Below are positions 903-29,172 of a stretch of DNA of 29,172 nt, piece after piece. The DNA comes from a virus. Positions within the stretch are counted from its first letter, which is position 1, and each line of letters opens with the position of its first letter. The notes beneath the pieces were generated by a model. It worked only from the letters and a program-made list of their open reading frames with translations. It was not told the origin of the DNA and searched no databases. The translations under genes were made by a program, and so were the position numbers. The DNA is taken from the IMG/VR virus record IMGVR_UViG_3300007960_000128, positions 1 to 29,172 of that record. One strand, written 5' to 3'.

Positions 903-3401
903 TCAAGCCTCAGGAATGGTTAAGGAATTATACCTGTCCTCGTAAATGTTCCATTTGCCTTCGTCACCTTCTTTATCAGCCGGTGTCTGCTTAAAGCCTG
1001 TCCATGCAAGCCACATCTTTTTGCCCTTAACAGGAACAACTCTTAGATGCATCTTAGTTTCAAATTTATTTCCTTTTAAGAAATATTCGTGATAGCCATC
1101 TCTTTGAATGCCTAACTTGATATCGCCGTAATCAATTACCTTACCTCGGCTCTTTGTCTTAGCAACCATAGCAGGATATTTTCCTGCCTTCCCAAATAAA
1201 TCAAATAGCGCATCTTCAGAATCTAATTCAATATACCAAATCAAATTCTCATCACCCAATTTAATACTTAAATCTAGATTATCATCATCTCTTAAGTAAA
1301 TTTTGAACTTACCATCTAAATATTCTTCAGGAGTTTTGTAGTCTGCTTTGACTACCTTATCTCCTTCAGCATAGATTTTCTTTTCTTCACGGTCATAGGA
1401 AATGCCATCTCTTTCCTGCGCCCAATCAAGTAATTTAGTTTCCTTACTTTCTAAGATATCTTCATATTCAGATACCGTTTTCTTCAAGAAGTTATGTAAT
1501 TGTTTAATTGTCTTTGGTCCATTCTCTTGAAGGTAGTTGATAATTGCAGTAGCCAAAACTCCTTGTTTTGTTTTCATAATTTCTTCTGCTTGAGACTTCC
1601 ACATATCTAAATCAGCAATAGCATTTTTAGACATTAAGTTGTCTTCTTCAAATCCATAAATATTGAATCCGTTCATAGAAGATTTAATGATAAGTGTAGC
1701 CTCTCCATGAATGAAATCAGTAACCTTGATTCCTTTTTCAAATGCAGACACGTCATAATTCAAAGACTTCTTGGTGTCTTTCGATAACATCTCTAAAGTA
1801 ATAACCTTGTCTGGTTCTTCAACTTCAGGAATTTCAATTACCTTTGCTGAATAAACGGTAAATCTATCATCGGAGGGCTTCACTTCGTCCACTTTCACGC
1901 GGATAATGTCACCTAACTTAGCAGAAATTTTCGTGTTAAGAGCCTTCCCTACGTCCATATAGGTCCGACCGTCTATTTCCTTGAAGTATTTCCCTTCACC
2001 TTCTGTTGGCCCTGCTCCGAGGGTGTAAGAGTATAGATTGCTGTTGGTCTTCTTCACATCAAGAACGATGAGGTCAAGGTCCACGAATTTTTTCCACTTA
2101 ATCCACTTTGGATTCTTACGTGTTCCAATGTAATATGTTGAAGTTGCATCCTTAATGACTACACCTTCAGATGTTGGCATTTCCATAATTTCCTTTGCAT
2201 AGGCTTCAATATCTTTAATATTGTCAGCCGTTCTAGTATCTTTCTTTGAAGGGAATGCTACTGCTTCAGAAGAGTTAGCAGAATAGTTATTGAATAAAAT
2301 AGTCATTCTATCTTCCAATGGTTCTTCAACAAGGTCGCGGGATTCATGACGCATAATATCAAATACGTGCGCTCTCAATTTAGCATCGGGATATTTACCC
2401 TTAAATATGTGAGCGATTGTATCTGCTCTATGGAGAGGTTCGTCACCATCAAAAAGAATAAGTTCAGCATCAAGAATACAGTCCCCGTATTGCTTTTGCT
2501 TCATTTCTTCAACTTGCTCTTTGCATTTTGAAGTAATATCCTTTTCATTATATGAATAAATTTTGATGTTGTTATCAATCTTATGAATTTGAATTCTCAT
2601 ACCATCGTATTTTTCTTGAATAATCCAATCTCCACTAAAGCCACGGAGTTCATTCAAATCTTCAATGTCAAAAATTCTATACATTGGTTTATTTGGAATC
2701 AAGAAATCAGACTGAGCCTTTTCTTCTTCAGACTTAGTTTCTGCTTTCTCAATTTCTTGAACATCTTCCCATTCCTCTTCTTTGTGTTGTGAGAGATAAA
2801 ACATCTCTAACATATCAAATGCTTCATCAACTGCGGCTTCGACCTTCTTTGAGTCCTTTCCATCACCGTATTGCTCGATGATATACAGGGCTATGTCGTC
2901 TGCTTCCAAGTCAAGGCCGTGGAAGCCTGCGGTAATTTCGTCCGGTTCCATGTCTTTAATCTTCCAGACTTTCTCAGGAAGCGCGTTTTTAGAATCTCTT
3001 AAAGCATAATGGACAAACTTAGCCATCGTTTCAGGTTCTCCGAGTAATACTTCTAAAACCTTATCCTTATATTTTCTAACAAAGGGGTCATTAGACTCAT
3101 CAGCAGAAAGTCTCATAGTTTTGACACTTTCATATACACGGCTAGCAATTTGAGAGGTCGGGTCTGCTGCCTCTTTATTTTCTAACTCGTTCTTATTAAT
3201 ATAGTCTTCAAGAATACTTCCTAGTGCATTTGTCTTAGAATAGGCAGAGCGTAAATCTTCGATGGCTTTTCGCCAACGTCCACCGTATTCTTTAGGGTCT
3301 TCCCTTGCAGAAAGATACGCTACGCGAGTCTTCTCAAATAAGCGAATAATCTCCTCAGATGGAGATTCTTCTTTATCAAGAAGAAGAGGCATGTAAATCA
3401 C
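903..3401 (-). CDS. Large ATP-dependent DNA ligase with LigD-phosphoesterase-like C-terminal domain
   Basis: 832 aa. The nucleotidyltransferase core is clear: motif I EKYDGMR with lysine K264 as the likely AMP acceptor, DCILDAELILFD (motif III), TSEGVVIKD (motif IV) and PKWIKWKK (motif V), then an OB-fold region ending near VYSAKVIEIP. Residues 1-235 form an unknown, highly charged helical extension. After the OB fold there is a winged-helix-like stretch (GPKTIKQLHNFLKK) and a final 130 residues whose pattern (LDLSIKLGDENLIWYIEL, then YFLKGNKFETKMHLRVV and MWLAWTG) resembles the LigD 3'-phosphoesterase fold. The family's HxxRLHxD catalytic segment is not visible, so that domain may be inactive. 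Most viral ligases are far smaller. It sits inside the virion-gene operon beside the prohead protease, which is unusual. The start may be the GTG at 3401 or the ATG three codons on. Ligase call is strong; the tail is inference. Confidence 0.9.
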   Translation of the reverse strand: MIYMPLLLDKEESPSEEIIRLFEKTRVAYLSAREDPKEYGGRWRKAIEDLRSAYSKTNALGSILEDYINKNELENKEAADPTSQIASRVYESVKTMRLSADESNDPFVRKYKDKVLEVLLGEPETMAKFVHYALRDSKNALPEKVWKIKDMEPDEITAGFHGLDLEADDIALYIIEQYGDGKDSKKVEAAVDEAFDMLEMFYLSQHKEEEWEDVQEIEKAETKSEEEKAQSDFLIPNKPMYRIFDIEDLNELRGFSGDWIIQEKYDGMRIQIHKIDNNIKIYSYNEKDITSKCKEQVEEMKQKQYGDCILDAELILFDGDEPLHRADTIAHIFKGKYPDAKLRAHVFDIMRHESRDLVEEPLEDRMTILFNNYSANSSEAVAFPSKKDTRTADNIKDIEAYAKEIMEMPTSEGVVIKDATSTYYIGTRKNPKWIKWKKFVDLDLIVLDVKKTNSNLYSYTLGAGPTEGEGKYFKEIDGRTYMDVGKALNTKISAKLGDIIRVKVDEVKPSDDRFTVYSAKVIEIPEVEEPDKVITLEMLSKDTKKSLNYDVSAFEKGIKVTDFIHGEATLIIKSSMNGFNIYGFEEDNLMSKNAIADLDMWKSQAEEIMKTKQGVLATAIINYLQENGPKTIKQLHNFLKKTVSEYEDILESKETKLLDWAQERDGISYDREEKKIYAEGDKVVKADYKTPEEYLDGKFKIYLRDDDNLDLSIKLGDENLIWYIELDSEDALFDLFGKAGKYPAMVAKTKSRGKVIDYGDIKLGIQRDGYHEYFLKGNKFETKMHLRVVPVKGKKMWLAWTGFKQTPADKEGDEGKWNIYEDRYNSLTIPEA

Positions 3402-11699: not shown

Positions 11700-13127
11700 T
11701 CAAAAATTAAGACCTATGAAGCCCCGTTGTGGACGCGGTGTAGCCGTCGGACTGTTGCCGAATATGTCTAAGTCGTCGAGCAGAATGAAGGCTTCTGAGG
11801 CTTGATATGTGGCTGCATTCGCTAAGGCAAGACTCATCACCATATCGTCATGCGCCCCGATGCCTTCAAACTTGCCGGAGTCCGTAATAGCAAACATAGA
11901 CAATTCTTCGATTAGAGTAGAAGTAACTCTTCTGCTCTCTTCATTGCCATATGGGAAATGTAACTTCTTATTTTCAATGGTCATCTGTAAGTTGAGAATA
12001 ATCTCTTGCTTCTTACGTCTAGTGGTATTAAAGTCGTGAACATTAATATCTGCAACTTGTCGTAACTCCTGAGTAAATGACTTTGCGAAAGTGTTAGTTT
12101 CAAAAAGAACAACTTCAGGACGAAACATTGAGTTAATGAGTTTAACCTTCTGAATGTTCTCTCTAAACTCTACATTCTTAGAACGGTCAATATATACGAT
12201 GCTCTTATTTTCATTCTCGTCCATTTCAAGAACAGTAATTACGTTATAGTCACCATCTGTTGAAATTGCAGGGTCAACCCCTACATAGTATTTGTATCCT
12301 TCTCTTTTAAGTGGTTTCAAAATTAAATCTTTATTCTTAGCAAGGTCTAGATATTCTGGATTAAATAGGCTCATACCTGTTGAAATAGGAACACACAAGT
12401 ATTCTCTTGTGAACTTCAATGTTCCAATTTCAGACTTACGAGCCATGAGAGCATCGTAATTCCAACGCTCAGGCCACAAGGGTTCATTGAGAGAATTTAA
12501 ACATGGGTAGGTTCTAACAGTATAGGCTTCATTTTCAGCCAACTGTTGATAAATGTCAGTATAACTGAAAGGTGTTCCAATTACACGCAAAGATGCGGTG
12601 TGGTGAAGCGTAGGAATCATGTCTCCATAGAACCAATCAGTAACCTTTTGGATAGCGGTCATACTGAATTCTTTTAGAGGGTCGTCAATAATGATTTCTT
12701 GAGGGTGAAGGCCACGAATCTGAGAACCAACAGAACGCTCAAGGATTTGGTTTCCATTTGTGAGGGTAATGTTTCCGATAGCCCAACCGCGAGGAGGTTT
12801 AAATTTTTGAAGATAAGGATGGGTGAAGATTTTATCAATGTCTCTCATGTGAACCATAGTCTGCTTTTGGTTAGACGAAATGTATAGCATTTGATACGGA
12901 GGCTCTTGGAAAACTAAGTTCCATACCACCCAACTGTGCATAAATACAGATTTACCGTGGTCACGAGAACAAATGATAACTGTTCTTTGAGTATCATTCA
13001 TCAAATCATGCCATTCTTGAATGTAAGAAGGGAAATCGAAACCTAAGACCTGTTGAAAGAAATAAGGAAAAGAATTGGCGGATAATTTCATATCCATTGA
13101 TTCTTGTAGGTCAAAAGAGGCTTGCAT
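11700..13127 (-). CDS. terL: Terminase large subunit (TerL)
   Basis: 475 aa, the DNA-packaging motor. ATPase: Walker A-like CSRDHGKS (53-60), Walker B EIIIDD (144-149) and the coupling motif LRVIGTPFSYTD (180-191). RNase H-fold nuclease: YYVGVDPAIS with D285, VVLFETNTFAKS with E343, and GAHDDMVMSLALA with D427/D428, giving the metal-binding acidic triad. Length is normal for the family. It starts six bases after AAGGAGGTAA, a strong ribosome binding site that overlaps the stop of the upstream acetyltransferase-like gene. It would thread DNA through the portal encoded downstream. Confidence 0.96.
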   Translation of the reverse strand: MQASFDLQESMDMKLSANSFPYFFQQVLGFDFPSYIQEWHDLMNDTQRTVIICSRDHGKSVFMHSWVVWNLVFQEPPYQMLYISSNQKQTMVHMRDIDKIFTHPYLQKFKPPRGWAIGNITLTNGNQILERSVGSQIRGLHPQEIIIDDPLKEFSMTAIQKVTDWFYGDMIPTLHHTASLRVIGTPFSYTDIYQQLAENEAYTVRTYPCLNSLNEPLWPERWNYDALMARKSEIGTLKFTREYLCVPISTGMSLFNPEYLDLAKNKDLILKPLKREGYKYYVGVDPAISTDGDYNVITVLEMDENENKSIVYIDRSKNVEFRENIQKVKLINSMFRPEVVLFETNTFAKSFTQELRQVADINVHDFNTTRRKKQEIILNLQMTIENKKLHFPYGNEESRRVTSTLIEELSMFAITDSGKFEGIGAHDDMVMSLALANAATYQASEAFILLDDLDIFGNSPTATPRPQRGFIGLNF

Positions 13128-20416: not shown

Positions 20417-21073
20417 TCATTGGAGTTCACTTTGGAAACGGTCTTTGATGCGAAGCCAAACTTGTGGGTCAGATTCTGCCAAAACTTCCTGAACAATCTC
20501 CATTTGCTTATGAATTACAGTATGCTCAGTCTTGTTAACAAACTCACCTTTGAATTGCATCAGGTATTTTAGGCTCTCTCGAACCTCTCTTGCTAGTTTG
20601 GTAAGAGAATCAACTACCTTAGGGTCAAAGTCATCTTCAGCGAACACTACGTCTAACGCAGAATCTAACCGTTGGATGTTCTTTGAGAGCATTTCAATCT
20701 CATTTACTTCCTTTTTCGCTATGATAGTGGCCGCAGATTCCTGCACTATCGGCGTCAAGTGGTGCTTCATGTGGCGTTGGACCTGCTGTTTCGTAGTCCC
20801 CAACGCTTGAGAAATCGCTTCAGTTGTGATATTGCCCTCGTTAATCGCAACCTCGTAGTGTTTGCGTAATGGGTCCGTGCATAACGCACAACGGGGATTT
20901 GAACTTGTTTCATACTCTCCCATGTGATTTCTTAAGTGTTGTGCAACAGTTCCGCTTCGCCAATCTTGGTCCCTGTCGAGCGTATTCGGGTCAAGACGAC
21001 CCGTTTCTAATCCGGCCTCCAACGCTTCGCGGTCTTCGTGCATACACAGCCCACAGCGTTTTCTCATAACCAT
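20417..21073 (-). CDS. Candidate small terminase subunit with two CxxC...HxxxH repeats
   Basis: 218 aa. Two similar N-terminal units: CGLC (C7, C10) with AQHLRNH (H46, H50), and CALC (C62, C65) with VQRHMKHH (H101, H104/105). Each could bind zinc, and each contains a helix-turn-helix-like segment (TTEAISQALGTTKQQVQRHM). A long coiled coil follows (VNEIEMLSKNIQRLDSALD) and a short C-terminal domain. DNA-binding head plus oligomerising helices is the usual plan of TerS, which recognises packaging sites for TerL, and no other gene here is a better candidate. It is well upstream of TerL, so this is inference; a transcription regulator is the main alternative. Confidence 0.72.
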   Translation of the reverse strand: MVMRKRCGLCMHEDREALEAGLETGRLDPNTLDRDQDWRSGTVAQHLRNHMGEYETSSNPRCALCTDPLRKHYEVAINEGNITTEAISQALGTTKQQVQRHMKHHLTPIVQESAATIIAKKEVNEIEMLSKNIQRLDSALDVVFAEDDFDPKVVDSLTKLAREVRESLKYLMQFKGEFVNKTEHTVIHKQMEIVQEVLAESDPQVWLRIKDRFQSELQ

Positions 21074-24726: not shown

Positions 24727-24763
24727 CAAAGCCATATGGTTGTAACTTTGGTTAATAACCCTA
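24727..24763 (+). promoter_or_regulatory. Composite palindromic promoter element, copy 1
   Basis: CAAAG (24727-24731), CCATATGG (24732-24739), CTTTG (24746-24750), then ACCCTA (24758-24763). Unlike other copies, CAAAG abuts CCATATGG. The box ends 25 bases before the ATG at 24789, which has no Shine-Dalgarno sequence, so a leaderless transcript is likely. Confidence 0.7.
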
Positions 24764-24788
24764 AATCCCTCAAAATAGAGTTTTCAAC

Positions 24789-24983
24789 ATGGAAGAGAAG
24801 CCATATGAGAAAAATCGCGGAACATACTCAGACGGAACGCCTCGTGAAAGGGGCAAATATGAATGCAGCCGTCATCCTGTAATCAGGGGCTATAAATTCA
24901 TGTATGACCGGAATTGGTGCTATGAATGTGTTGCTTTTATGAAAGCGATGGGCTCTGAAGACTTTGAAGGTGATTGGTGCTAA
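24789..24983 (+). CDS. Small Cys-rich protein, probably leaderless
   Basis: 64 aa. Cysteines C26, C44, C47 and C64 with H29 (ECSRH, WCYECVAF, terminal DWC) could form a small zinc site. N-terminal third is charged and probably flexible. No ribosome binding site precedes the ATG; the promoter-like box lies 25 bases upstream, the spacing expected if transcription begins at the start codon. A strong hairpin follows seven bases after the stop. First of the single-gene units of the right-hand module. No family recognised. Confidence 0.75.
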   Translation: MEEKPYEKNRGTYSDGTPRERGKYECSRHPVIRGYKFMYDRNWCYECVAFMKAMGSEDFEGDWC

Positions 24984-24989
24984 ATTAGG

Positions 24990-25022
24990 CACAAGGGCAG
25001 GTTAATCCGTAAGTCCCTTGTG
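24990..25022 (+). terminator. Hairpin after the first accessory gene
   Basis: Perfect 8-base stem CACAAGGG / CCCTTGTG with a 17-base loop, starting seven bases after the stop at 24983. No T-run follows, so it may stabilise or process the 3' end rather than terminate. Confidence 0.5.
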
Positions 25023-25028
25023 GTAATT

Positions 25029-25081
25029 CAAAGCATTACCATATGGTTTGGACTTTGAGTTGAAGAATGAAATAAACCCTA
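25029..25081 (+). promoter_or_regulatory. Composite palindromic promoter element, copy 2
   Basis: CAAAG (25029-25033), CCATATGG (25039-25046), CTTTG (25053-25057), then ACCCTA (25076-25081), 18 bases on instead of 7. It lies upstream of the paralogue gene at 25149, which has a leader and its own ribosome binding site. Confidence 0.68.
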
Positions 25082-25148
25082 TTAGTCCCCAAATTGAAGG
25101 CTTAGTTGTCTCATGGGGAGACAAGACACCAAAACGAGGTGAAACATC

Positions 25149-25634
25149 ATGGAACAAGAAAAGTATGCAAAGAACCTTCAAAAAGTTCGTGCGTGGATGA
25201 ACGAAAACGACGCTGGCGCGATGGCTCAAGTGCTTGAAGCACAAATGGCCCTCCCTGCCGAAACCGAACAAGACCGCGACCGCCTTTGGCAAGCAATCAG
25301 GGCAATTGCAGCAATGCTGCCCAATTCGCCAATCAAGAAGGGCCGTGGTTCTTCCCTGCCTGTTGAGGTCCAAACCCTCATTGATGCCATTTCTCACGAT
25401 TACGGCGTTGAAATGGGTCTGGCGTGGAATGCCGCAGAAAACCGCTATTTGATGCGAAAGCACGGAAAGAGCGGTGGCGGTCTTTTCGCCAATCAGGATG
25501 AAGTCATTGAAACCCATGCGGCGAAAATGGCTTCTGACCTGAAGAAGCGATACAACGACGAAATCTGGGATGGAACCCGCGAAGGGCTGTATTCTCAGAT
25601 TTTCCCCGTTCAGGAGGTGAACGAGGAAGAGTGA
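25149..25634 (+). CDS. Accessory protein, paralogue A
   Basis: 161 aa, ATG preceded by GAGGTGAAACATC. Clearly related to the protein at 26770-27288: both share AWM-x-x-NDAG-x-M, LW-x-AIRAI-x-AMLPN, K-x-GRGS-x-L, a late GK-[ST]-GG and an acidic end (VNEEE here). Helical, without known catalytic motifs or membrane segments. The invariant GRGS and GK-[ST]-GG loops might bind nucleic acid or phosphate. The two genes face each other across a gene-free interval, each with its own promoter element. An unrecognised family, clearly under selection to keep its sequence. Confidence 0.85.
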   Translation: MEQEKYAKNLQKVRAWMNENDAGAMAQVLEAQMALPAETEQDRDRLWQAIRAIAAMLPNSPIKKGRGSSLPVEVQTLIDAISHDYGVEMGLAWNAAENRYLMRKHGKSGGGLFANQDEVIETHAAKMASDLKKRYNDEIWDGTREGLYSQIFPVQEVNEEE

Positions 25635-25663
25635 TTGTGTCAAATCTCCCCATGAGGCCCCAA

Positions 25664-25727
25664 TTTTTCTTAGGCGCATTGACCCCCGTAGGACGGGAAT
25701 GTTCATGTAAGTCGCCAAAAGAAAAAA
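25664..25727. other. Long two-part hairpin in the spacer
   Basis: TTTTTCTTAGGCG (25664-25676) pairs with CGCC plus AAAAGAAAAAA (25713-25727), enclosing a second stem CCCGT / ACGGG (25685-25689 / 25693-25697). It could end transcription in either direction: U-rich on one strand, A-rich on the other. It lies 30 bases after the stop of paralogue A. Confidence 0.5.
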
Positions 25728-25733
25728 TAATAA

Positions 25734-25799
25734 TAGGGTTTCATTTACAATGCAAAGTCCAAACCATATGGTAGCCTACTTTGGCTATTGGCTACCCCA
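25734..25799. promoter_or_regulatory. Composite palindromic promoter element, copy 3, boxes on both sides
   Basis: CAAAG (25753-25757), CCATATGG (25764-25771), CTTTG (25779-25783). A rightward ACCCCA (25794-25799) precedes the gene at 25844; a leftward TAGGGT (25734-25739) points toward 25640, where I see no minus-strand gene. This copy might fire both ways. Confidence 0.62.
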
Positions 25800-25843
25800 T
25801 AAACCGTAATTGTTACCTTTGGGTGTCCAAGGAGGCAAAAAAC

Positions 25844-26149
25844 ATGGTAACAGAACAGAAAATCAGGAACCTGACGAATTGTGGGCTTGTGAGCGTCAAT
25901 CATGCTCTAAAACTCGCAAAAACGCTTGAAAAAGTGACGAAGACAGAAGACCTCAGCGAGAACACCCTAACTGCTCTCATTGACTTGATGCAAGTGGCTG
26001 AACAGACACAGGACGCTTTGCGTCAAACCCAAAAGAAGCGTGATGAATATCATGGTTATTGGCAGAACCAGCGCGACGAATTGAGGCGTTTGCGTGAATG
26101 CCTCGACACCATCAACACGCTGCGAAAGATGATTCACTACGATGAATGA
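25844..26149 (+). CDS. Coiled-coil accessory protein
   Basis: 101 aa from the ATG at 25844, chosen for AAGGAGG eight bases upstream; the longer frame starts inside the promoter element. Helix-rich throughout with a long coiled coil in the second half (LRQTQKKRDEYHGYWQNQRD, RRLRECLDTINTLRKM), preceded by a short helix-turn-helix-like stretch (LTNCGLVSVNHALKLAKTL). Possibly a small DNA-binding or adaptor protein. No family recognised. Confidence 0.78.
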   Translation: MVTEQKIRNLTNCGLVSVNHALKLAKTLEKVTKTEDLSENTLTALIDLMQVAEQTQDALRQTQKKRDEYHGYWQNQRDELRRLRECLDTINTLRKMIHYDE

Positions 26150-26175
26150 GGGGAAAACGGGAACCAATGACCCTT

Positions 26176-26193
26176 CCTGCCCTTAGGGGCAGG
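26176..26193 (+). terminator. G+C-rich hairpin after the coiled-coil gene
   Basis: Seven-base stem CCTGCCC / GGGCAGG with loop TTAG, 26 bases after the stop at 26149. No T-run follows. Confidence 0.5.
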
Positions 26194-26214
26194 GAGGCGA
26201 GGTTCTGCATAAAC

Positions 26215-26268
26215 CAAAGTGCGAACCATATGGTAGTAGTCTTTGAGTTTGTTAAAACGCTACCCCCA
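26215..26268 (+). promoter_or_regulatory. Composite palindromic promoter element, copy 4, facing a gene-free stretch
   Basis: CAAAG (26215-26219), CCATATGG (26226-26233), CTTTG (26241-26245) and a degenerate rightward box TACCCCCA (26261-26268). No convincing plus-strand frame follows in the next 400 bases. Confidence 0.6.
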
Positions 26269-26652
26269 AAATCATCCAATTAAGGATGATTTGCCCCGGC
26301 GGTAGCGCAATTCAGATTTCTATTCAATTCGCTTAATTATTTTAGGGCATCGGCTTAATGGACCAATTATGAGGCCTTTTTTGACGCACTATCCCTAAAC
26401 CATTGGAATAGGGAATCATGGGCCACATAATGTGACTTAGGCATCACCACCAACTCATAATTTATTTCAAGCAATGCGGGGGTGCTTTGCTTAATGTTGC
26501 CTTGTGCTGGGTTAAAGCAGGAGTTTCGACACAACTTCCACGCGCCTCGCTACGTCTGAGGAAAACGGTTATTTTATTTCACCCGTTCAGTCACGAATAC
26601 CGGGGAGGGAATGGAAAATACTAACCATCCCTAACCGGCAGTTAAAGATGAT
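26269..26652. other. Gene-free structured interval, candidate non-coding RNA
   Basis: I see no credible gene on either strand. Visible structure: a perfect 7-base stem ATCATCC / GGATGAT (26271-26290), and a long hairpin from CCGG (26600) to CCGG (26638) with AGGGAATGG pairing to CCATCCCT. It is bounded by two promoter-like elements that point inward, copy 4 from the left and copy 5 from the right. A virus-encoded regulatory RNA, a packaging site or a replication origin are all possible. I could not fold it into a tRNA. Confidence 0.4.
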
Positions 26653-26699
26653 TAAGGTATATTTCATTCAAAGGCCATACCATATGGTTCTAGACTTTG
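26653..26699 (-). promoter_or_regulatory. Composite palindromic promoter element, copy 5
   Basis: CAAAG (26669-26673), CCATATGG (26680-26687), CTTTG (26695-26699) and a leftward box TAAGGT (26653-26658; ACCTTA on the minus strand). It points into the gene-free interval, opposite copy 4. Confidence 0.58.
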
Positions 26700-26720
26700 A
26701 TTGCTTGCAATGAACCCCAA

Positions 26721-26738
26721 TGCCCCCCGAAGGGGGCA
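26721..26738 (-). terminator. Hairpin downstream of paralogue B
   Basis: Stem TGCCCCC / GGGGGCA with a four-base loop, 32 bases past the stop of the minus-strand gene that ends at 26770. Typical of the hairpins that close each unit of this module. Confidence 0.52.
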
Positions 26739-26769
26739 AAGGGGCCAAAGGGGGACACAATCCCGAAAA

Positions 26770-27288
26770 TCACTCCTCTTCATCGCCCTCCGTTTCAGAG
26801 GCCATTGGAGGAATCAGGTTGAGCGGCATTCCGTCTTGAGCGGAGCCATCCCAACGGTCCTCCTTGAGAGCCGTCTTCAGAACACGCGAAACACGCGCTC
26901 CTTCGTTCTTTGCGGCATCTTGAGCCGAAGCGTAAGAACCGCCCGTCTTTCCGTGAGGAAGGACAATTCCCGAAAGAAGAGCCCAATTCGCCTCATAAAA
27001 GCCCGCAAAGGCAGTTTCGACCGCATTCGCCACAGAATCCACAGCGGCCTGAATCTCCGGTGAGAGAGTCGAGCCGCGACCGCGCTTGACAAACGTATTT
27101 GGGAGCATAGCGCCAATGGCGCGAATTGCCGTCCAAAGACGTTCCGCCTCGGTAGGATTTGCGACGTTAGCCGCCAACAGGTCGTTTTGGAGCCTCAAGA
27201 CTTCAGACATACTGCCCGCGTCATTCTGCTCCATCCATGCATTCACCGTTTGGACCTTTGAAGTCCAATATTCTGTATCTTTTTCCAT
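26770..27288 (-). CDS. Accessory protein, paralogue B
   Basis: 172 aa from the ATG at 27288, which has GAGGTGAACATC upstream, nearly the same leader as paralogue A; the longer frame to 27339 starts before this site. It shares NDAG, RLWTAIRAIGAMLPN, KRGRGSTL and GKTGGS with the protein at 25149, and ends in an acidic EGDEEE tail. Between the shared blocks the two have diverged and have insertions, so the duplication is old. Helical, no membrane segment. Unknown family; a dose-related or partner role of the two copies is conceivable. Confidence 0.85.
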   Translation of the reverse strand: MEKDTEYWTSKVQTVNAWMEQNDAGSMSEVLRLQNDLLAANVANPTEAERLWTAIRAIGAMLPNTFVKRGRGSTLSPEIQAAVDSVANAVETAFAGFYEANWALLSGIVLPHGKTGGSYASAQDAAKNEGARVSRVLKTALKEDRWDGSAQDGMPLNLIPPMASETEGDEEE

Positions 27289-27362
27289 GATGTTCACCTC
27301 GTTAGGTTGTGTCTCCGGTTTTGTGTCCCCCTTCGACACCTAAACGACCAAAAGAAGGTATA

Positions 27363-27416
27363 TGGGGTTTATCATTTCATTTAACAAAGCAATAAACCAT
27401 ATGGTTTGATACTTTG
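27363..27416 (-). promoter_or_regulatory. Composite palindromic promoter element, copy 6
   Basis: CAAAG (27385-27389), CCATATGG (27397-27404), CTTTG (27412-27416) and a leftward box TGGGGT (27363-27368; ACCCCA on the minus strand), 16 bases from the palindrome. It serves paralogue B, whose start is 75 bases further on. Confidence 0.68.
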
Positions 27417-27436
27417 GGCTTCAATTACCCGATGAG

Positions 27437-27466
27437 GACGAGAAGGGGCCGCAGCCCCCTCCCGTC
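27437..27466 (-). terminator. Hairpin downstream of the zinc-ribbon gene
   Basis: GGGGC / GCCCC (27445-27458) inside an outer GACG / CGTC pairing, about 43 bases beyond the stop at 27509 in the minus sense. Confidence 0.5.
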
Positions 27467-27508
27467 CGGCCTCGGCGTTTGCCGTGAGTTGTTCCGATTG
27501 CTCGCAAT

Positions 27509-27784
27509 TCAAGCGAGGTCGGCCATTGTGATGCCTTTGTCGGCATAACCGGGCAAGGCGACGATTTTTTTCATGGCCTCGGTGTCGAAGTGGTGCGAAA
27601 TTGACCTAAGCCATTCAATGTCGCAGGTTCGCCGTTCCTCGGCTTTTCGGGCTTTCTCTTCCTCGGACAACGGTTCCTCACCGCATTCCTCGCAAAAAAT
27701 TTCCTCAGGGTCGAAATTGTTGATTACAACCCCTTCAATCACAATGTCGTAGCCGCAATAATTGCAGTATGTCTCGTATTTCAT
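27509..27784 (-). CDS. Zinc-ribbon protein
   Basis: 91 aa, ATG preceded by GAGGTATAACG. CNYC (C7, C10) and CEEC (C31, C34) form a standard four-cysteine zinc ribbon over the first 40 residues. Next is a charged helix (EEEKARKAEERRTCDIEWL), then a small helical C-terminus. Such proteins often bind nucleic acid or RNA polymerase; an early regulator is a fair guess. Promoter element copy 7 lies about 80 bases upstream and a hairpin follows the gene. Confidence 0.8.
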   Translation of the reverse strand: MKYETYCNYCGYDIVIEGVVINNFDPEEIFCEECGEEPLSEEEKARKAEERRTCDIEWLRSISHHFDTEAMKKIVALPGYADKGITMADLA

Positions 27785-27839
27785 CGTTATACCTCATTTT
27801 GTGCCTATTTCAGCACCCATGCCGAATTGTCGGTATTCT

Positions 27840-27882
27840 TACGGTTGTTCAACAAAGATAACAACCATATGGTCTTACTTTG
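27840..27882 (-). promoter_or_regulatory. Composite palindromic promoter element, copy 7
   Basis: CAAAG (27853-27857), CCATATGG (27865-27872), CTTTG (27878-27882), leftward box TACGGT (27840-27845; ACCGTA on the minus strand), seven bases from CAAAG. Serves the zinc-ribbon gene. Confidence 0.66.
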
Positions 27883-27897
27883 GTCTAAATGACCTCG

Positions 27898-27915
27898 CCA
27901 CCCCCTAAAGGGTGG
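27898..27915 (-). terminator. Hairpin downstream of the two-gene unit
   Basis: Stem CCACCC / GGGTGG with a six-base loop, about 20 bases past the stop of the 46-aa gene in the minus sense. Confidence 0.48.
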
Positions 27916-27934
27916 GTCATTGGTCGTTTTGGGC

Positions 27935-28075
27935 TTAACACCGCCTCCCGTTGCACCATCTTTCATCATCTGCTCGCTCATCACACGCTCGCATTTCAGT
28001 CACACCGGAACAAGTCCGGCAGTAACGGATTGACGTTCCGCATCTTTCGCTTTTGCAGTATTTACAGTTGTCCAT
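27935..28075 (-). CDS. 46-aa multi-cysteine protein
   Basis: Complete 46-codon frame, ATG at 28075 to TAA at 27935. GGAGG sits eight bases upstream inside the stop region of the preceding gene, so the two are coupled. Cysteines at 4, 7, 12, 19, 22, 31, 41 and 46 (NCKYC, YCRTC) give eight in 46 residues, enough for two zinc sites. Starts MDNCKYCKSERCG. No family recognised. The only clear two-gene unit in this module. Confidence 0.7.
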   Translation of the reverse strand: MDNCKYCKSERCGTSIRYCRTCSGVTEMRACDERADDERWCNGRRC

Positions 28076-28077
28076 AT

Positions 28078-28287
28078 TCATCCCTCCGCAGGAAAGTTTT
28101 CTGCGTCCTTCTCAATTTGCGCCATAAAACGCTCAGCATCAAAACGCGGGTTGATTTGCTTGCAGGTGTCGCAAAAGGCATAAATCAAATCATAGACCCC
28201 GTAAAGGGTGTATTCTGTGTTAGAGTGCCTCGCCACAATTCGAGCAAAAGACCATGCAAACTTCTCGAAATCCTTTCGGGTCATCAT
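28078..28287 (-). CDS. Small phage-type protein (MTRKDFE...NPRFD), probably leaderless
   Basis: 69 aa. Begins MMTRKDFEKFAWSFARIVA and ends CKQINPRFDAERFMAQIEK, a plan common to many short phage and plasmid proteins of unknown function that open MTRKDY/F and end NPRFD-x-x-RF. No Shine-Dalgarno sequence; the TAGGGT box (ACCCTA on the minus strand) ends exactly 25 bases upstream of ATG 28287, as in two other units. Met 2 at 28284 is an alternative start. Translationally linked to the 46-aa gene downstream. Confidence 0.8.
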   Translation of the reverse strand: MMTRKDFEKFAWSFARIVARHSNTEYTLYGVYDLIYAFCDTCKQINPRFDAERFMAQIEKDAENFPAEG

Positions 28288-28312
28288 ACCCTAAACCGGA
28301 TAATCAGATTCA

Positions 28313-28355
28313 TAGGGTTAGTCAACCAAAGTTGCTACCATATGGTCTTACTTTG
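28313..28355 (-). promoter_or_regulatory. Composite palindromic promoter element, copy 8
   Basis: CAAAG (28327-28331), CCATATGG (28338-28345), CTTTG (28351-28355), leftward box TAGGGT (28313-28318). Box to ATG: 25 bases between. Confidence 0.7.
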
Positions 28356-28362
28356 GGATAGA

Positions 28363-28384
28363 CCCCGAAGGGGGGCTTTCGCCC
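28363..28384 (-). terminator. Double hairpin downstream of the last gene
   Basis: CCCC-GAA-GGGG (28363-28373) directly followed by GGGC-TTTC-GCCC (28373-28384), just past the stop of the minus-strand gene ending at 28392. Confidence 0.5.
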
Positions 28385-28391
28385 TATGACC

Positions 28392-28697
28392 TCAGTAAAA
28401 GACCTGAGGCTCATATTTACCCGTTTCGCGGTTGAAGTGCATCAAAATCACGCTGTCGGGAGTGCTGCAAACCGCCAGAAAAGCGGTCAAAGCAGAAGTA
28501 AGGCCGGTGACGTAAAGGTGCAAAACATCAGCACCGAAAACATCGAGTGCAGCGTTGAAAGCGATGGAAACGCTCCGAAGGTATTCAAAGTCCAAGGGAT
28601 TCTCAATCTCTTGGAAAATGAATTGTTCAACGGGTTGTCCATCGTTGGTCTTGATTTCATGGCGTCCTGCACAAAGCCCCACGGTTGCTACGTTCAT
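28392..28697 (-). CDS. Small alpha/beta protein, unknown, probably leaderless
   Basis: 101 aa. Compact alpha/beta pattern: MNVATVGLCAGRHEI opening, a helix, then LHLYVTGLTSALTAFLAVC (59-77) and ILMHFNRETGKYEPQ (84-98). The second part, strand-helix-strand with TGLT and a hydrophobic helix, recalls small Rossmann-like proteins of the CARF or ring-nuclease kind; that is only an impression and no catalytic residue can be named. No ribosome binding site; the promoter box ends 25 bases before the ATG. Outermost gene of the accessory module. Confidence 0.78.
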   Translation of the reverse strand: MNVATVGLCAGRHEIKTNDGQPVEQFIFQEIENPLDFEYLRSVSIAFNAALDVFGADVLHLYVTGLTSALTAFLAVCSTPDSVILMHFNRETGKYEPQVFY

Positions 28698-28722
28698 GCT
28701 AAAACCCGAAAATCTGTATTCT

Positions 28723-28755
28723 TAGGGTATTTGGACAAAGAACCATACCATATGG
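28723..28755 (-). promoter_or_regulatory. Composite palindromic promoter element, copy 9
   Basis: CAAAG (28736-28740), CCATATGG (28748-28755), leftward box TAGGGT (28723-28728). The right-hand CTTTG is missing, so the outer arm is not needed on the side away from the gene, or the copy is decaying. A weak further copy (CAAAA and TCATATGG, 28831-28854) follows. Confidence 0.66.
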
Positions 28756-28789: not shown

Positions 28790-29172
28790 CTCCCCTGCCT
28801 ATGTCAGTTTAGGTATGAAATATTATCCTGCAAAATAGACTCCATTTCATATGGGTCGTTTCAATTGCACCTATACCTATGATGTATATTCATATGCTAT
28901 ACCTATAACTATGCAAATTGATGTTTCTAAGGCGGGCAGGGGGGCTAGAATAATAGAAACCGCCCAAAACAGGAGGGTAGTGCAACAGTAGGTAGGAGTT
29001 TCTTCATTATTATATATTTATTATTATTATACTACTACTACTACTACTACACAGGGAGAGAGAAACACAGGGGGGGGGAGAGAGAGAAAAGAAGAGGGGG
29101 GGGGTATAATCATTAGAATGATAATCGAAACGCCTTTCGAGGAGTTTCATGGGGTTAGTGTTGCACTAGCCC
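28790..29172. other. Non-coding low-complexity right end
   Basis: No gene seen. It holds two direct copies of CTATACCTAT (28871-28880 and 28897-28906), an ATT-rich run followed by about seven repeats of the triplet CTA/ACT (near 29030-29051), long G and GA runs (29052-29104), and an inverted repeat TAGTGCAACA (28978-28987) / TGTTGCACTA (29159-29168). It could be a genome terminus, an origin or an assembly edge. Confidence 0.5.

Follow-up and report, generated by a model that had tools for sequence, protein, structure and literature searches.

The closest known system to the one described here, and one that follows the same logic, is the regulon of Sulfolobus viruses (SIRV2 and Aca8; SMV2), in which early and anti-defence promoters share a motif with a strong purine-rich TFB recognition element (BRE) and TTTAWATA (PMC11065993). 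For the archaeal activators EarA, TFB-RF1 and Ptr2, which help TFB or TBP at weak promoters, the binding motif keeps a set distance from a weak BRE, on its upstream side (9-11 bp for EarA), and these proteins are thought to recruit TFB/TBP directly (PMC10665913). We analyzed a 29,172-nt stretch of viral DNA (IMG/VR record IMGVR_UViG_3300007960_000128, positions 1 to 29,172; hereafter the window), whose right-hand module carries nine copies of a gapped palindrome consisting of a CCATATGG core between CAAAG and CTTTG arms. We put at about 85% the probability that every unit of a magrovirus accessory module has the same kind of promoter and that this element makes up its upstream, regulatory half.

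The core CCATATGG occurs ten times in the window, where shuffling gives an expectation of 0.29. Nine matches fall within 24732-28755, exactly where a sequence-only reading of this DNA had put nine copies, and the tenth, at 11947, is armless and inside TerL, as that reading had also noted. Both arms are present in eight of the nine module copies; the ninth (28748) has no right arm. The same reading gave the element as CAAAG-N6-CCATATGG-N6-CTTTG with near-constant spacing: the anatomy of arms and core stands but the constancy does not, as the spacers range from 5 to 7 bp with one of 0 and one right arm absent, and the literal formula is matched letter for letter by none of the copies. Among relatives the conserved core is the 10-mer ACCATATGGT, with a T following CCATATGG in 89%. 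Neighboring copies in the window are separated by 0.3-0.7 kb, with one for each transcription unit on either strand, and the region they occupy is the only part of the window that combines 45-50% GC with single-gene units on both strands. Seven copies have an open reading frame (ORF) on their downstream side and so agree with the earlier statement that the element precedes each unit; those at 26226 and 26680 do not, and border a 0.42-kb stretch without a convincing ORF. The element was also considered as an RNA hairpin, a reading that was rejected on the grounds that the core palindrome is loopless, the spacers are non-complementary and the site is upstream of the start.

The position of the element relative to genes was examined in 313 distinct two-armed elements, counting both sides of each and ORFs of at least 50 aa. 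Start codons lie 50-59 nt from the core centre in 121 instances, where positions drawn at random from those loci give about 19. Profiles anchored on the ATG have C or T at -1 in 94%, and an A/T-rich box at -33 to -22 that follows C/A-rich bases. The motif ACC[CT][TC][AT] is concentrated 3-12 nt past the arm, with a shoulder at 15-19 nt, an interval in which its reverse complement is almost absent, and its distance to the ATG is mainly 29-34 nt (about 31). In the window, the box is 22-23 nt from the centre at leaderless genes and 32-33 nt at both genes of the protein family c0 (described below); such a second spacing class, longer by approximately one helical turn, is suggestive of helical phasing, and a stronger claim of helical periodicity was dropped since it was not significant once redundancy was removed. 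No such box was found in 77 regions upstream of conserved structural and replication genes, which have G-rich, Shine-Dalgarno-like leaders instead. Given the BRE/TATA and pyrimidine-purine start that are general features of archaeal promoters (PMC7289017), the ACCYTA box with a pyrimidine before the ATG is, as far as sequence goes, an archaeal promoter that would yield leaderless mRNA.

A second line of evidence comes from manA RNA (RF01745), described by Weinberg et al. in 2010 as a riboswitch candidate in 5' untranslated regions (UTRs) of marine bacterial and cyanophage genes (PMC2864571). Run on 44 magrovirus records and 14 control genomes, its covariance model matched 11 of the former and none of the latter, with a twelfth match in L078; the scores in G019 (86.1 bits) and G012 (64.4 bits) exceed the gathering threshold of 55.2 bits, and those in the nine other records and L078 are below it. 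In all 12 matches the 5' end of the RNA lies 53.5-57.5 nt from a core centre (one at 67.5, about one helical turn more) and a box lies 28-35 nt upstream of that end. Because the RNA model is blind to the promoter, this agreement supports the predicted start site. In eight of the 12 there is no ORF of at least 45 aa before the next element, so these look like stand-alone RNA genes with their own promoter; they do not occupy the 5' UTR of a metabolic gene, as a cis-regulatory RNA would. The magrovirus copies resemble manA by the covariance model and differ from the described examples in mostly having no gene behind them, which speaks for an RNA that stands alone and is not a riboswitch. From the fixed spacing to the BRE/TATA-like box, to start codons and to structured-RNA 5' ends, the element is a promoter-associated site common to the whole module, in keeping with the sequence-only reading's proposal of a regulator site or unusual promoter that turns on the module together.

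An Rfam search of the window's module, including 26246-26668, returned no match, and manA was not found in the window. A 178-nt match to relative L078 spans element 4 and the start of the 26246-26668 stretch, and this stretch between elements 4 and 5 may be an RNA unit of the manA kind. Elsewhere, L027:1-2628 (L398:6405-9232) contains 14 CCATATGG cores, most of them armless, in 2.6 kb of largely noncoding DNA; several of its units fold strongly (z of -3 to -4.4), one is manA, and CCATATGGatgatagtcc recurs, so that it is possibly an array of small RNA genes.

The window is a 29-kb fragment of a magrovirus, a tailed virus of Poseidoniales, archaea that are abundant in the ocean. It carries TerL, portal and ligase-like genes, and its 80 TerL relatives, with identities of up to 92%, place it among 90-100 kb marine viral contigs. 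In the near-complete relatives (G001 and others), the replication arm encodes PolB, RFC/AAA, an ATP ligase, a chaperonin (Cpn60) and a TFB-like protein, the structural arm runs opposite to it, and the element cluster is at their junction. The complete relatives match in size, opposite arms and gene set the description of magroviruses (International Committee on Taxonomy of Viruses; order Magrovirales; Aoguangviridae, Apasviridae), which have 90-100 kb genomes, two opposite gene clusters, PolB, RFC, ligase, TFB and GroEL (PMC10768690).

Conservation was assessed in TerL-selected records of at least 60 kb, a sample chosen independently of the element, of which 23 include the module region. Homologous modules without the element, which the sequence-only reading had named as evidence that would count against it, were looked for among these: 22 retain the element, with 5-13 cores each (20 in a double-length 184-kb record, in two clusters), nearly all in one cluster between two divergent gene arms, and the 23rd has a variant. 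This genome, G023, has a single standard core plus the variant TTACCATATGCTTTGG at the same place, six copies of it across the module (L352:4600-8560). Four of the six lie 44-46 nt before an ATG, a TATA-like stretch lies between TTACCATATGCTTTGG and the ATG with a box/ATG spacing similar to that of the standard element, and one of the genes starts like a family (MRKI...) that has the standard element in other genomes. By these sequences G023 would be a natural case of regulator-site divergence. G027, G029 and G031 were considered as counter-examples in which the cluster is absent, and were set aside: their contigs appear to end before the module, and the module marker genes were not found.

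The TerL-selected loci, mostly structural-gene DNA totalling 1.39 Mb, contain only six cores. A scan of 2.9 million viral contigs (IMG/VR) gave at least 119 stretches with the full pattern, and 560 distinct cores were collected. Among the matches listed, 97 stretches have at least three cores; 84 of these have recognizable magrovirus genes or the c0 family, and the other 13 are 1-5 kb pieces, with a relative of the magrovirus PolB encoded in eight of ten contigs searched. We found no description of the motif in magroviruses in the literature, in a search that did not cover the 2017 and 2025 magrovirus papers.

In the mechanism that we propose, a symmetric DNA-binding protein, a dimer or tetramer, would bind CAAAG-N5-8-ACCATATGGT-N5-8-CTTTG, and roughly 3-12 bp would separate the end of the bound site from a downstream core promoter whose box is the BRE/TATA-like ACCYTATA. 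The predicted transcription start is about 54 nt away from the middle of the palindrome, a position that often coincides with the A of the ATG, which would give leaderless mRNA, or with the initial nucleotide of a structured RNA. We infer an activator rather than a repressor, one that would help TFB/TBP onto a weak BRE, because the site directly precedes the BRE and keeps a preferred spacing, with a second class about one helical turn longer. The module would be switched on as a single regulon with one promoter per gene, presumably an early or accessory regulon expressed early for host takeover or anti-defence, and the binding protein is probably viral rather than from the host. Several observations weigh against this proposal. 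A convincing downstream gene is missing for two of the nine window copies; boxes were recognized on both sides of 87 of the 313 elements and on one side of 145, leaving 81 with none; helical periodicity in the non-redundant set gives a Rayleigh p of about 0.14; and position alone is compatible with a repressor too.

The element could thus be an operator for a virus-encoded, Aca-like repressor that would silence strong early promoters at a later stage of infection, and such a regulator could be among the module's own proteins. Occlusion repressors usually overlap the BRE, TATA box or start site, whereas the palindrome here is wholly upstream of the BRE/TATA box at a preferred spacing. Shared inverted repeats at early and anti-defence promoters of Sulfolobus viruses have been read as repressor sites, but the BRE of the magrovirus units is not of the strong purine-rich type found there (PMC11065993), and we regard a repressor as unlikely, if still worth keeping in mind. 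We take a similarly doubtful view of a Poseidoniales transcription factor whose binding site the virus exploits. A host factor could act immediately upon infection with no viral product needed, and the element is conserved across diverse magroviruses; however, a scan of 84,980 bacterial and archaeal species genomes gave at least 118 scattered stretches, almost all single-site, on unrelated contigs and nearly all bacterial, with a Poseidoniales label on none among the matches listed, which by estimate is about the level of chance. The changed element in G023 is, moreover, what a co-evolving viral factor would produce.

Two further explanations appear very improbable. Iteron-like replication or partition sites, also raised by the sequence-only reading, would suit a module that lies between divergent arms and at or beside the GC-skew minimum in eight genomes examined, and an origin near the module is possible, but this minimum is confounded by gene orientation. 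The copies, furthermore, are spaced one per unit in both orientations and locked to boxes, ATGs and RNA 5' ends; they are not the tightly packed tandem direct repeats next to a Rep gene that make up an iteron origin, and no Rep was identified among the window module proteins scanned. Sites for recombination or integron-like cassette exchange between interchangeable units are just as hard to credit: the units vary greatly, with 100 singletons among the 132 protein clusters, and one virus has the 14-core array in largely noncoding DNA, yet a preferred distance to the BRE/TATA box and start codon would be needless for a recombination site, and units lie on both strands. Shared promoters may nonetheless assist homologous exchange. 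A further reading, which we put forward tentatively and at well below even odds, is a dedicated virus-specific switch in which a viral protein, possibly with the viral TFB, would read the palindrome and the unusual ACCYTATA box, captured gene or RNA cassettes would join by acquiring one element, and the regulon would include free-standing RNAs (manA and others). If so, manA would be a virus-encoded trans-acting RNA, not a riboswitch.

Table 1 Elements, boxes and units of the accessory module in the window, and manA matches in relatives. Spacers are given left/right in bp; distances run from the element centre to the ATG unless stated otherwise.
Feature	Position	Strand	Remarks
Element 1, CAAAG-N0-CCATATGG-N6-CTTTG	24727..24750	.	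Core start 24732; spacers 0/6; for + gene 24789-24983, 53 nt
BRE/TATA-like box ACCCTAAATC	24758..24767	+	31 nt ahead of ATG 24789
64-aa ORF, function unassigned	24789..24983	+	Probably leaderless
Element 2	25029..25057	.	Core start 25039; spacers 5/6; for + gene 25149-25634, 106 nt
Box ACCCTATTAG	25076..25085	+	33 nt from centre, about one helical turn beyond leaderless-unit distance
Family c0 protein, 161 aa	25149..25634	+	Multicopy in relatives
Box ACCCTATTAT	25730..25739	-	On - side of element 3; unit uncertain, would run antisense to c0 gene
Element 3	25753..25783	.	Core start 25764; spacers 6/7; boxes on both sides
Box ACCCCATAAA	25794..25803	+	For + gene 25844-26149
101-aa ORF, function unassigned	25844..26149	+	76 nt
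Element 4	26215..26245	.	Core start 26226; spacers 6/7; adjoins noncoding stretch; convincing downstream ORF on neither side
Noncoding DNA from element 4 to element 5; candidate noncoding RNA unit(s)	26246..26668	.	Fold z -2.7 (+), -2.3 (-)
Box ACCTTAATCA	26649..26658	-	From element 5 into noncoding stretch
Element 5	26669..26699	.	Core start 26680; spacers 6/7; arms and core
Family c0 protein, 172 aa	26770..27288	-	AlphaFold pLDDT (predicted local distance difference test) 91.5, all-helical
Box ACCCCATATA	27359..27368	-	32 nt from centre
Element 6	27385..27416	.	Core start 27397; spacers 7/7; for - gene 26770-27288, 112 nt
91-aa ORF	27509..27784	-	Weak zinc-ribbon similarity
Box ACCGTAAGAA	27836..27845	-	Between element 7 and - gene 27509-27784
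Element 7	27853..27882	.	Core start 27865; spacers 7/5; for - gene 27509-27784, 84 nt
69-aa ORF, function unassigned	28078..28287	-	Probably leaderless
Box ACCCTATGAA	28309..28318	-	Between element 8 and - gene 28078-28287
Element 8	28327..28355	.	Core start 28338; spacers 6/5; for - gene 28078-28287, 54 nt
101-aa ORF, function unassigned	28392..28697	-	Probably leaderless
Box ACCCTAAGAA	28719..28728	-	Between element 9 and - gene 28392-28697
Element 9, CAAAG-N7-CCATATGG, no right arm	28736..28755	.	Core start 28748; spacers 7/none; for - gene 28392-28697, 54 nt
manA matches	L401-L411, L078:1728-2007, L398:7339-7567		Covariance model

The 311 proteins encoded downstream of elements fall into 132 clusters and have a median length of 98 aa; most are without a Pfam or PHROG match. 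The largest cluster, c0 (71 members of about 170 aa), is present in nine of nine genomes examined, usually in 1-3 copies each, and is characterized by a conserved WDG and an acidic C-terminus, as in the window proteins at 26770-27288 and 25149-25634. A peptide-pattern search with the 161-aa c0 protein found no relatives, because module proteins evolve too fast for it; relatives were found by clustering the proteins of fetched genomes. We considered c0 as a DNA-binding regulator and did not retain it: the confident all-helical model had no Foldseek match in the PDB at an E-value of 0.001 or better, VIA-align results were middling only, BFVD gave one unnamed viral protein, and no PHROG or named-phage match was found. 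The TerS-like protein c9 (window 20417-21073) was likewise set aside as a regulator, its HTH_20 match being weak and its conserved C-terminus resembling a small terminase. Of the 26 near-complete genomes, 24 encode a TFB-like protein with a zinc ribbon and TFIIB-core similarity. One unit family of 19 members (L035:10612-10902) matches cyanophage Kyano_Gp96 (PF23790; phrog_554), which on sequence grounds points to gene sharing between archaeal viruses and cyanophages.

Other features of these genomes deserve mention. L332:13437-14169, L326:1150-1770 and their homologues are 0.6-0.8 kb stretches of noncoding DNA that separate the element cluster from the outermost c0 gene, partly conserved across genomes and near the GC-skew minimum, making them candidates for a replication origin or an RNA. 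At 903-3401, in the structural arm, the window encodes a protein of 832 aa that includes the core domain of an ATP-dependent DNA ligase, an odd location for such a domain and one that comes on top of the ligase in the replication arm of relatives. The contig end at 29010-29120 consists of simple repeats (TAT/TAC triplets, GA-rich DNA and runs of G), low-complexity DNA that possibly broke the assembly. Finally, L161 (IMGVR_UViG_3300021958_000021, 184733 bp) has two TerL copies and two element clusters and looks like two magrovirus genomes joined.

Magroviruses, of which none has been cultured, rank with the most widespread archaeal viruses of the ocean. A cis-signature of this kind lets candidate host-takeover and anti-defence genes and RNAs be listed across many genomes, predicts where transcription starts with a precision of a few bases and can serve as bait for the regulator; the occurrence of manA in magroviruses also re-frames this orphan RNA family. 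The text of the Sulfolobus-virus study (PMC11065993) does not contain the words "magrovirus", "marine" or "euryarchae". As in that regulon, a single regulatory sequence with a BRE/TATA core (here the ACCYTA box, 29-34 nt ahead of the ATG) recurs in front of many small single genes of a variable region, most of which are unrelated to one another (here 5-13 elements per genome upstream of proteins in 132 clusters); the core genes have promoters of another kind, and the motif diverges between virus groups. The magrovirus system differs in its host group, in having structured RNAs among its units and in its element, a palindrome of 24-32 bp that lies upstream of the core promoter without reaching into it; moreover, the consensus has a weak ACC(C/T)TATA with no preceding purine run in place of the purine-rich BRE and TTTAWATA. 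With EarA, TFB-RF1 and Ptr2 it has in common a preferred spacing (3-12 nt from arm to box, with a second class at 15-19 nt), and it differs from their sites as a large viral palindrome in 5-13 copies per genome. The logic of a shared regulon is therefore already known from Sulfolobus viruses; new here are the element and where it sits with respect to the BRE, together with a different host group and the presence of RNA units.

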